Origin: Pseudomonadota bacterium
GTDB lineage: Bacteria; Pseudomonadota; Gammaproteobacteria; Burkholderiales; Methylophilaceae
Direction of reading: 5' to 3'
DNA: 64,000 nucleotides
NCBI GenBank assembly: GCA_020053735.1
Contig: JAGVMP010000019.1
Location: 124,001 to 188,000 of the forward strand
The position numbers and the translations under genes were made by a program. Numbering within the stretch: position 1 is the stretch's first letter; each line of letters begins with the position of its first letter. The notes under the pieces were generated by a model. It made no database searches. It was not told the origin of the DNA and saw only the letters and a list, made by a program, of their open reading frames with translations. This document shows, piece by piece, positions 53,312 to 56,261 of this stretch.

Positions 53312-54499
53312 TTACTTAGCAAGCAAACTCAAATCTGCTATTAAATCATCCACATGCTCAAGCCCCACTGCGATGCGCACCAAGTTATCTTGTATGCCTG
53401 CCATGGCGCGTGCCTCTGCAGAAACTCGACTGTGCGTAGTCGTGGCTGGGTGAGTGATGGTACTTTTGGCATCACCTAAATTAGCGGTTATCGAAATCAA
53501 TGCTGTCGCATCAATCAATGCCCAAGCAGCCTGCTGCTGCGTTTGACCAGCTTTCTGCTTCACTTCAAAACTCACTATTCCACCACCACTGGTTTGCTGT
53601 TTTAAAGCTAAGGTATGCTGTGGATGTGAGGCCAGTCCTGGATAAAATACGCGCGCCACTTGTGGCTGTTTTTCAAGCCAAGTCGCAAGCGCTAATGCTT
53701 TACAGGCGTGCGCTTCCATCCGCACATGCAATGTTTCTAAACCTTTTAAAAACACCCAAGCGTTAAACGCACTCATCGTGACTCCAGCACTTCGCAAGAA
53801 GCCATATACAGGCTCCATTAACACCTTAGACCCCAGCACAGCACCGCCCAAGCACCTACCTTGTCCATCGATATATTTAGTGGCGGAGTGAATAATAATA
53901 TCTGCGCCTAAATCTAGTGGGCGCTGAATCGCAGGCGTACAAAAACAATTATCCACCACCAAATGTGCGTCTGCTTTGTGAGCGATGTTTGCCAAAGCGG
54001 CAATATCGCACACCTCAGTCAGTGGGTTAGACGGCGTTTCGGCAAAAAATAATTTAGTTTTTGGCGTAACTGCAGCTTGCCACTCGGCAGGATCAGTCAG
54101 TGAAACGTAGGTGACTAGCAAGCCCCAGCGTGCCATGATATTGCTGAACAATTGCACAGACGTACCAAAAATACTGCGCGAAGCTACAATGTGGTCACCA
54201 GCAATGCATAAGCCCATCACGCAAGCTAAAATCGCTGACATGCCGCTAGAGGTTGCCACGCATTGCTCGGCACCCTCAAGCGCCGCCAATTTATTTTGAA
54301 ACATGGTCACCGTAGGGTTGGTAAAGCGCGAGTAAATATTACCTGGCTCTTGTCCGCCAAAACGCGCTGCCGCTTGCGCTGCGCTTTTAAAACGGAAGCT
54401 GGAATTTAAAAACAGCGCCTCAGAATTTTCGCCATACTCAGTCGCTTCGCTACCTGCACGCACGCTCAAAGTCTCAGCATGATATTGTTTGTTAGTCAT
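53312..54499 (-). CDS. metZ: O-succinylhomoserine sulfhydrylase
   Basis: This PLP enzyme of the Cys/Met metabolism family makes homocysteine directly from O-succinylhomoserine and sulfide. The 395 residues include ETLSVRAGSEATEYGENSEA, ALEGAEQCVATSSGMSAIL, FFAETPSNPLTEVCDI, DNCFCTPAIQRPLDLGADII and the PLP lysine in HSATKYIDGQGRCLGG. MetZ naming fits the loop typical of sulfhydrylases and the gene order purF-metZ. It is preceded by a SAM-II riboswitch and terminator, so its expression should fall when S-adenosylmethionine is abundant. GAGAG precedes the ATG. Confidence 0.93.
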   Translation of the reverse strand: MTNKQYHAETLSVRAGSEATEYGENSEALFLNSSFRFKSAAQAAARFGGQEPGNIYSRFTNPTVTMFQNKLAALEGAEQCVATSSGMSAILACVMGLCIAGDHIVASRSIFGTSVQLFSNIMARWGLLVTYVSLTDPAEWQAAVTPKTKLFFAETPSNPLTEVCDIAALANIAHKADAHLVVDNCFCTPAIQRPLDLGADIIIHSATKYIDGQGRCLGGAVLGSKVLMEPVYGFLRSAGVTMSAFNAWVFLKGLETLHVRMEAHACKALALATWLEKQPQVARVFYPGLASHPQHTLALKQQTSGGGIVSFEVKQKAGQTQQQAAWALIDATALISITANLGDAKSTITHPATTTHSRVSAEARAMAGIQDNLVRIAVGLEHVDDLIADLSLLAK

Positions 54500-54533: not shown

Positions 54534-54570
54534 TAAAAAACCCGTTGAAGCTTACGCCAAAACGGGTTCT
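54534..54570 (-). terminator. intrinsic terminator in the metZ leader
   Basis: On the minus strand AACCCGTT and AACGGGTT pair around a loop of about 17 bases, and the stem runs into TTTTTT. It lies six bases downstream of the SAM-II aptamer and 35 bases before the metZ ATG, so it probably serves as the riboswitch's expression platform as well as a stop for purF transcripts. Confidence 0.88.
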
Positions 54571-54576
54571 TTTTTA

Positions 54577-54655
54577 CCTCGCTTTAGCAGAATTTATTAT
54601 GCGCTCGCAAGCTGAGTAAGGCTTTGTTTAAAGTTGGCCACTCAAATCAGCGCAA
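54577..54655 (-). promoter_or_regulatory. SAM-II (SAM-alpha) riboswitch upstream of metZ
   Basis: The minus-strand RNA has the SAM-II signature in order: TGCGCTGATTT, a variable insert, TTGCGAGCGCA, then ATAAAT, GCTAAA and a terminal GAGG. The P1 stem UGCGC/GCGCA is perfect, with a U-A pair where the well-studied aptamer has C-G. The variable insert forms its own stem (GAGTGGC paired with GCC and ACTC) and is longer than in the minimal aptamer. metZ, the following gene, is a classic SAM-II target. Known SAM-II examples are mainly in alphaproteobacteria. Confidence 0.88.
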
Positions 54656-54713
54656 TTTCATGTTATGCCTAACAAAACCCTAGGTCAAGCATTTTTTATT
54701 TCTTCAAGCAATT

Positions 54714-56261
54714 TTATGCTGCAGAAACTTCCTCTGCATCTTCTTCGGCATCAATCAAATTTAAATCCATTTGTGTGCTGGCATTAGCAGGTTTTTGCTT
54801 TTTATTCGCATCACCACGCGCAGACTCTATACGATTCAAATAGGCAGCGTCCACATCTCCCGTGACATACTTGCCATCAAAGCAACTACAATCAAAGTCA
54901 GCAATCGCGGTATTGCTTAGCTTAATGTCACCTACCAAATCATCTAAATCCTGATAAATCAGCGCATCAGCGCCAATTTCTTTGCAGATCTCTTCATCAC
55001 TGCGGCCTGTGGCAAGCAACTCATCTCGGCTTGGCATATCAATGCCATACACATTGGGAAAGCGCACTGGTGGTGCAGCCGAAGCAAAGTACACTTTATT
55101 GGCGCCTGCATCGCGTGCCATTTGCACAATTTGCTGAGATGTCGTGCCGCGCACGATGGAGTCATCCACCAACAATACATTTTTGCCTTTAAACTCAATG
55201 CCTATCGGGTTGAGTTTTTGCCTAACAGACTTTTTACGTAAAGCCTGACCTGGCATAATAAAAGTGCGGCCAATGTAGCGGTTTTTAATGAAACCTTCGC
55301 GATAATCTAACCCCAAGCTAATGCCTACTTGTAAAGCGCTCGGCCGGCTGGTGTCTGGAATCGGTATTACGACGTCAATTTTTTTATCAGCCCATTCGCG
55401 CTTAATTTTGTTGGCCAAGCTAACGCCCATATCTAAGCGGGTTTGATACACCGAAATGCCATCGATCACTGAATCTGGCCTAGCTAAATAAACATACTCG
55501 AAAATACACGGGTTAAGTTTTGCGTTTTCAGCGCATTGGCGGCTAAACAGGTTGCCATCCATATCGATAAATATAGCTTCGCCAGGTTCTACATCGCGCA
55601 TCATTTTGAAGCCTAGCACGTCTAGTGCTACGCTTTCTGAGGCTACGATATATTCGGTGCCTTTGTCGGTTTCTTGCTTACCGATTACCAATGGGCGAAT
55701 GCCATTCGGGTCACGAAACGCCAGTAAACCAAAATTAGCAATCATCGCAACGACCGCATACGCGCCTTTGCAACGACGATGCACACCAGCCACTGCATCA
55801 AACGCCATATCGGTATTAAGTACTGCGTTTTTAGAGGTTTTTTCAATTTCGTGCGCCAACACATTCAGCAGCACTTCAGAATCCGAACTGGTATTGATGT
55901 GACGTAAATCTTGGCGGAACATTTCAGACTTTAACTGCTCGGAGTTGGTGAGGTTGCCATTGTGGCCTAGCACGATACCAAATGGCGAATTCACATAAAA
56001 CGGTTGTGCCTCGGCGGCACTGGATGAACCCGCTGTGGGATAGCGCACGTGGCCGATGCCAACATTACCAATGAGACTGCGCATATGGCGGGTTTGAAAT
56101 ACATCTTTCACCAAGCCATTATTTTTATGCATAAAAAACGTGTTTCCATCGCAGGTCACAATACCTGCAGCATCTTGCCCGCGATGCTGTAGCACCAGCA
56201 GGCCATCGTACAGCAGCTGGTTAACTGGGTTTTTACCGACGATACCGATTACACCACACAT
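54714..56261 (-). CDS. purF: amidophosphoribosyltransferase
   Basis: It catalyses the first committed step of purine synthesis. The 515 residues begin MCGVIGIVG, with Cys2 as the glutaminase nucleophile after Met removal, and contain [26 protein letters not shown], and the PRPP-binding [18 protein letters not shown]. The last ~45 residues are a variable tail rich in Lys, Asp and Glu. The family carries no Fe-S propeptide in this form. It is 75 bp downstream of cvpA, a standard pairing. Confidence 0.95.

Follow-up and report, generated by a model that had tools for sequence, protein, structure and literature searches.

The expression platform of SAM-II riboswitches has been little tested. The family (RF00521, SAM_alpha; metA motif) combines a helix P1, a pseudoknot helix P2, a GAUUU third strand and a UUGC/GCUAAA core, and the leader described here shares all of these with it, together with a position upstream of metZ and a terminator after P2. 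SAM-II elements with terminators were already reported in betaproteobacteria in 2007 (PMC2258182), and the majority of SAM-II elements are described as transcriptional (Huang and Lilley, 2018; PMC6061858), so that two remarks of the original prediction, that a betaproteobacterial occurrence is notable and that SAM-II often hides the ribosome site, do not agree with these accounts. In Sinorhizobium meliloti, an alphaproteobacterium, the metZ and metA SAM-II cases were studied (Scheuer et al., 2022; PMC9373788); the metZ case has the target gene and a predicted SAM-dependent terminator control in common with our locus, and the sections of that report on these leaders leave an insert hairpin unmentioned. 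Elements with a SAM-II core and enlarged loops (RF01726, SAM-II long loops) are listed for Bacteroidetes and marine sequences (PMC2864571), and SAM-V has a pseudoknot core and a SAM pocket closely similar to those of SAM-II, but is described as translational and carries a helix P3 after the 3' strand of P1 (PMC6061858), whereas the extra stem of the element studied here lies in L1.

Two further RNAs were described in the same gene neighbourhood under other names. The 'metXZ' RNA was presented as a novel betaproteobacterial element before metX or metZ, present upstream of metZ in three Methylophilales, with six conserved blocks, a pseudoknot, an alternative fold and a terminator after the element; its description gives no ligand and keeps it apart from SAM_alpha, which the same work reports only in Rhizobiales and Rhodobacterales (Leyn, 2014; PMC4239095). 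The transcript Bp2_Cand287, whose flanking genes include purF, metZ and metX, was detected by RT-PCR and suggested to act in cis as a methionine element (Khoo et al., 2012; PMC3521395). The corresponding Rfam family, RF02424 (Bp2_287, 'Burkholderia sRNA'), is typed by Rfam as an sRNA gene.

We analysed a 64 kb window (the whole stretch of DNA under study, to which all positions refer) from Methylotenera, a taxon that sets this element apart in the comparison with RF00521; the betaproteobacterial methylotroph anticipated as host was thus borne out. The leader sits on the minus strand between purF (ending at 54714, named by NCBIfam models above cut-off) and metZ (starting at 54499), and the pieces named in the original prediction were all found on this strand at the expected coordinates. 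The assignment of metZ as the gene under leader control, also predicted, is supported by two protein models. The gene, the promoter and the aptamer are as follows:

53312..54499, minus strand: metZ, O-succinylhomoserine sulfhydrylase, the controlled gene (NF006003 and TIGR01325 above cut-off)
54660..54688, minus strand: predicted sigma-70-like promoter TTGACC - 17 - TAACAT, directly 5' of the aptamer (consensus scan, 9/12 matches)
54649..54654, minus strand: P1 5' strand UGCGCU, pairing with 54600-54605, end pairs covarying
54643..54648, minus strand: L1 third strand GAUUUG, invariant in the 59-sequence alignment A1
54607..54616, minus strand: P2 pseudoknot 5' strand CUCAGCUUGC, pairing with 54578-54588, outer pair covarying in relatives
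54600..54605, minus strand: P1 3' strand AGCGCA, pairing with 54654-54649
54589..54599, minus strand: L3 UAAUAAAUUCU, containing AUAAAU, with AAA invariant in alignment A1
54578..54588, minus strand: P2 pseudoknot 3' strand GCUAAAGCGAG, which includes GCUAAAGCG, also the antiterminator 5' strand

The window gave no match to Rfam at its cut-offs. A significant hit with the SAM_alpha covariance model, whose absence had been named in the original prediction as a refutation, was therefore not obtained, and the insert described below is the likely cause. At a loose threshold RF00521 was the best family, with 22.2 bits (E 0.0042) against a cut-off of 36 bits, with an alignment that runs the full length, preserves P1 and opens a long insertion in L1. 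This 36-bit gathering score is a search threshold that relatives without the insert do attain (36/200 genomes of the order and, in a separate scan of 18 chosen loci, L037). RF00521 reached E ≤ 1 in 154 of these 200 genomes; such weak matches mean little, because E ≤ 1 was also reached in 7/14 control genomes, none of which (0/14) went over the cut-off. RF01726 matched the element still more weakly than RF00521 (16.5 bits, E 0.93, below its 44-bit gathering score) and, although it gave weak matches elsewhere in the same genome, none of the 17 among the matches listed was the window element.

We then relied on a model, R1, made from 59 cores whose insert is short or absent, all from outside Methylophilaceae; alignment A1 holds 59 of the 74 listed cores, taken from RF00521 matches in the rest of the order. 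Against the 64 kb window R1 scored the element at 48.9 bits (E 9.9e-13), the next match having an E of 0.042, and against the whole genome it gave one match (E 3.8e-11; next 0.073), the only convincing copy. It also recovered all 34 insert-bearing loci tried (27.8-61.8 bits), a subset of the 116 fetched in an insert-motif scan, whose motif overlaps the model. The sub-threshold Rfam score would be expected if the leader resembled SAM-II by chance or were a decayed relic; given the E of 9.9e-13 with an out-of-family model, and an exact-pattern core in 115/150 genomes of the family with a reversed control pattern in none, we regard the probability of this explanation as negligible. Judged by its sequence, the leader is a SAM-II riboswitch.

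The aptamer core was compared with that of relatives. Leader parsing, in which 21 loci failed the pattern, left 120 insert-bearing and 91 other distinct leaders. Of these 91, 80 belong to genomes outside the family and the remaining 11 to family genomes or to the insert-motif scan. The 11 include at least three chance parses within other sequence and one true leader that was misread (L192), and these impure parses were kept in the insert, terminator, pairing and antiterminator counts. The predicted P1 has six pairs in the window, and its end pair, which had been described as compensated, is C-G in 97, U-G in 73 and U-A in 37 of 209 leaders (2 of the 211 failed in the pair counts). The outgroup alignment shows 98.3% of P1 cells paired, with 17 double changes at the end pair; the A1 cores were partly picked by RF00521 and motif, so that the P1 counts lean towards P1, while P2 lies outside the nested model. 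In P2, 91.9% of cells are paired, with 12 double changes at the outer pair and four invariant inner pairs. For the two helices combined, 94.7% of cells are paired in the outgroup alignment, against 29-53% in slid controls. No shuffle (0/500) equalled the covariation score, the paired percentage or the count of cells with a change on each side. Two of the five measures fail against shuffles, 499/500 having as many pairs changed on both sides and 64/500 as many further pair types; the covariation is carried by the two outer pairs, the others being mostly invariant or close to it, and 8/14 pairs never vary. Taken together, these comparisons support P1 and the P2 pseudoknot in relatives.

The residues expected to form the SAM pocket are also in place. 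In the crystal structure 2QWY, base triples G8-C23-G42, U11.U21-A45 and U12.U20-A46 were described (PMC3764141), and we were able to identify, by spacing, the counterparts G54648, C54607 and G54588 for the first triple, U54645, U54609 and A54585 for the second, and U54644, U54610 and A54584 for the third. All these residues are present at matching spacing in the window and are invariant in A1. Read in the triple register, P2 has single bulges at U54586 and A54583. The pair counts (209 leaders; 59-core alignment) used a neighbouring register; since none of the three A varies in A1, this choice has no effect on them.

The feature that distinguishes the element from the RF00521 description is a 26-nt L1 hairpin, located as follows:

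54614..54643, minus strand: L1 insert hairpin GAGUGGC-loop-GCC-UU-ACUC, whose stem is kept in 29 distinct 30-nt segments

The 120 distinct insert-bearing leaders contain 76 distinct inserts of 10-33 nt, one of which (24 nt, in L038 and copies) is a parsing artefact that begins before the true aptamer. Folding energy is weak evidence for these inserts, since only 17/76 were matched in stability by no more than 5 of 100 shuffles, and covariation was therefore preferred. Of the inner pairs, 5-24 and 6-23 each persist in 28 and 7-22 in 27 of the 29 distinct 30-nt segments that share the window's type of insert, and pair 6-23 is divided between 15 G-C and 13 A-U. Over all seven pairs, 199/203 cells are paired, 58 of which are motif-fixed (pairs 1-30 and 2-29, to which 3-28 is added for loci from the insert-motif scan) and carry no evidential value; controls slid by -2, -1, +1 and +2 gave 59/203, 76/203, 69/174 and 72/145. 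The extra stem in the loop, and the covariation proposed as its check, are thus sustained: on this comparative evidence the L1 stem is real, with recurrent G-C/A-U exchange, and common in Methylophilaceae. Other genera have different but mostly self-complementary inserts, and some members have only 2-5 nt.

In one scan of 18 chosen loci, RF00521 reached E ≤ 1 in 8/8 Methylophilaceae loci with a 2-5 nt insert (27.5-36.9 bits, one over the cut-off) and in 0/10 with an insert of at least 13 nt; in another scan, a locus with a 15-nt insert (G027) scored 27.6 bits, under the cut-off. The low Rfam score is thus likely to be caused by the insert rather than by a lack of homology, and the Rfam SAM-II model misses insert-bearing members in this methylotroph family.

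We noticed that CUC at 54616-54614 is complementary both to GAG at 54643-54641, in the insert stem, and to GAG at 54580-54578, where it would extend P2. The outermost pair of this extended P2 is possible in 119/119 insert-bearing leaders vs 38/90 others, its 5' C being fixed by the search motif and its 3' G not. The insert could accordingly be pictured as a third helix that takes part in the switch and tunes the ease with which SAM locks P2, which would make this a three-state SAM-II; we consider this idea unlikely. Base pairing between CUUUA in the insert loop and UAAAG in the P2 strand was also considered, and was dropped because by eye it fails in many insert variants.

Downstream of the aptamer we identified the elements of a putative attenuator:

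54535..54569, minus strand: intrinsic terminator GAACCCGUU...AACGGGUUUUUU, folding at -15.5 kcal/mol
54556..54564, minus strand: antiterminator 3' strand CGUUUUGGC, within the terminator 5' arm and loop, predicted to form 9 pairs with 54588-54580 in the nascent RNA

A terminator within six bases of the aptamer had been claimed; the terminator stands, and the spacing has to be corrected to 8 bases, counted from GCUAAAGCGAG to the terminator stem. A simple terminator scan with a loop limit of 8 does not list this hairpin. Within P2, the strand GCUAAAGCG (54588-54580) has its complement in CGUUUUGGC (54564-54556), and when the growing transcript was folded without ligand, the probability of the antiterminator was 0.88, rising to 1.00, until the 3' arm of the terminator emerged, after which the probability of the terminator reached 1.00. 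In isolation, the antiterminator has an energy of -13.8 and the terminator of -15.5 kcal/mol. Full-length folding, performed with ViennaRNA and so excluding the pseudoknot, favours the terminator, and switching must therefore be kinetic.

This arrangement is shared by the relatives, with the reservation that insert-bearing leaders are close relatives and their counts are not independent events. Terminators were found in 116/120 insert-bearing and 81/91 other leaders. UUUAGC or a wobble form of it is present in the terminator 5' arm and loop of 111/116 insert-bearing leaders, of 24/81 other leaders, and of 7/338 other terminators in the same loci (control hairpins number 338 in this count and 373 in the folding count, owing to the differing finder). 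When the leaders were folded, 108/116 insert-bearing ones had six or more of the nine P2-strand bases paired to the terminator 5' arm, vs 546/2320 controls carrying a foreign terminator arm, 8/116 insert-bearing leaders having no antiterminator by this measure; the pairing is less general in the other leaders (41/81 vs 322/1620 controls). The two arms of the terminator also differ, the 5' side CCCGUUUU[A/G]GC being nearly invariant and its partner side more variable. Counted from the CCCG anchor, the commonest letter of the 5' side occurs in 109-116/116 leaders through position 10, with the exception of one A/G position (87/28), and then in 55; in the twelve positions before the CGGG anchor it occurs in 46-90/116. 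Terminator loop lengths vary, so the conservation of the two arms is not strictly comparable, and the asymmetry fits a strand with two alternative partners. A second antiterminator, formed by the P2 5' strand and the terminator 3' arm, was considered because some leaders show complementarity by eye, and is not claimed here.

Terminators are common after operons, and purF is next upstream in 86/102 loci with enough upstream sequence, as would be expected if the hairpin were merely the terminator of purF and the aptamer acted on translation or served as a constitutive leader. However, purF and the element are separated by a promoter-like site, and the element stays with metZ in 11 loci where the next upstream gene is not purF, which is 1.3-2.6 kb distant in 8 of them and was not seen in the other 3. 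The near-invariant terminator 5' side also speaks against such a purF terminator. Moreover, metZ starts 35 bases past the end of the terminator, and therefore P2 does not cover an adjacent ribosome site. We consider this explanation improbable. The predicted fold and its conservation provide an intrinsic terminator together with a mutually exclusive antiterminator that uses an aptamer strand, as in an attenuator, and the mechanism is likely to be transcription attenuation. SAM binding would lock the P2 3' strand GCUAAAGCGAG in the pseudoknot, the terminator would fold and metZ would not be transcribed. Without SAM, the P2 3' strand would capture CGUUUUGGC during transcription, delaying the terminator and allowing the polymerase to read into metZ. 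As SAM is expected to favour termination, the leader would be an OFF switch, the ligand step and the kinetic competition being deduced from the predicted folds. Altogether, we are confident that the leader is a betaproteobacterial-type SAM-II riboswitch in which an inserted hairpin separates L1 from the P2 5' strand, and that it acts as a transcriptional OFF switch with a predicted response to SAM. The accessory stem is typical of the lineage, and the attenuation platform is well supported by conservation and by modelled folding. The conserved partner swap, in which a strand pairs either within P2 or with the terminator arm, makes the SAM-II expression platform directly testable in culturable methylotrophs.

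The comparison with metXZ rests on block order, taxa and target gene, taken from the published description, and on this basis metXZ is probably identical with the window element. The six metXZ blocks plausibly correspond, in order, to the P1 5' strand, GAUUUGA, CAGCUUGC, the P1 3' strand, L3 and GCUAAAG. The published account pairs blocks 2 and 6 and leaves block 3 unpaired (PMC4239095), whereas here the third block in order, AGCUUGC, is read as the P2 5' strand. The fact that metXZ was set apart from SAM_alpha as a new element (Leyn, 2014; PMC4239095), the absence of an Rfam call in the window, and reports that close riboswitch variants can switch ligand (PMC10853860) would be in line with a distinct methionine-leader RNA that responds to a non-SAM effector and resembles SAM-II by convergence or through a changed ligand. 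Against this stand the retention of the pocket residues and of both helices, and the genes controlled: ten leaders checked with NCBIfam, eight of them from outside the family, precede metX (3), metZ (3), metK (2) and metH (2), the expected targets of SAM feedback. We consider a non-SAM effector highly improbable, and the SAM-II assignment most likely supplies the ligand for metXZ, an RNA described in 2014 without one.

The third name is RF02424, which has the purF/metZ/metX neighbourhood and the proposed methionine cis role (PMC3521395) in common with our leader. At E ≤ 0.01 this family matched 25/100 genomes of the order, none over its 70-bit cut-off, and 20 of the 29 matches overlap SAM-II leaders, 20 from the opposite strand and 0 from the same one (for example G132:C22:126827-126977, in L275, and L037:1340-1453). 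The opposite-strand pattern recurs in the scan of 18 chosen loci. In the window, RF02424 matches weakly (16.8 bits) on the leader's own strand, covering only the terminator and the sequence that follows. RF02424 may represent either a riboswitch leader assigned to the wrong strand or a genuine antisense RNA, and these matches suggest that the locus behind the Rfam 'sRNA' family is a riboswitch leader. The window element, the 'metXZ' RNA and the RF02424 locus are thus probably one SAM-II leader; in the open-licence PMC literature, none among the matches listed was a paper joining SAM-II with metXZ or RF02424. The general picture of riboswitches is unchanged and the find is sound but mostly expected, its added value lying in the probable unification of three names and in the reason why the standard model misses the element.

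The exact motif was found in 115/150 genomes of the family (reversed control, 0), and 22 of the remaining 35 match R1 at E ≤ 0.01, a few of them weakly. The insert-motif scan of named genomes gave 116 stretches, and the 80 listed among them belong chiefly to Methylotenera, Methylophilus, Methylobacillus, Methylovorus, Methylopumilus and other Methylophilaceae, the remainder coming from two Herbaspirillum assemblies and from genomes that bear other names or are unplaced. Of the 94 insert-motif loci with enough sequence, 90 have metZ as the next gene downstream; in the other 4 metZ was not found. In the wider order, leaders over the Rfam cut-off also precede metK (L047, L062) and metH (L057, L066), targets that go beyond the metX and metZ given for metXZ (Leyn, 2014; PMC4239095). 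Genomes of genus g16 (0.9-1.4 Mb; e.g. L297-L306) are mostly without the exact motif and often have weak R1 matches, perhaps reflecting erosion of the element in streamlined genomes. In one leader (L030, of G021), GCAAAA replaces GCUAAA some 65 bases downstream of the P1 start and a long spacer precedes the terminator, which would make it a decayed or changed aptamer. Finally, the two Herbaspirillum leaders (L083:6111-6200 and L131:732-818) are SAM-II leaders that carry, in addition to an L1 insert, an apparent hairpin in L3, in the place occupied by P3 in SAM-V, a helix described as absent in SAM-II (PMC6061858).
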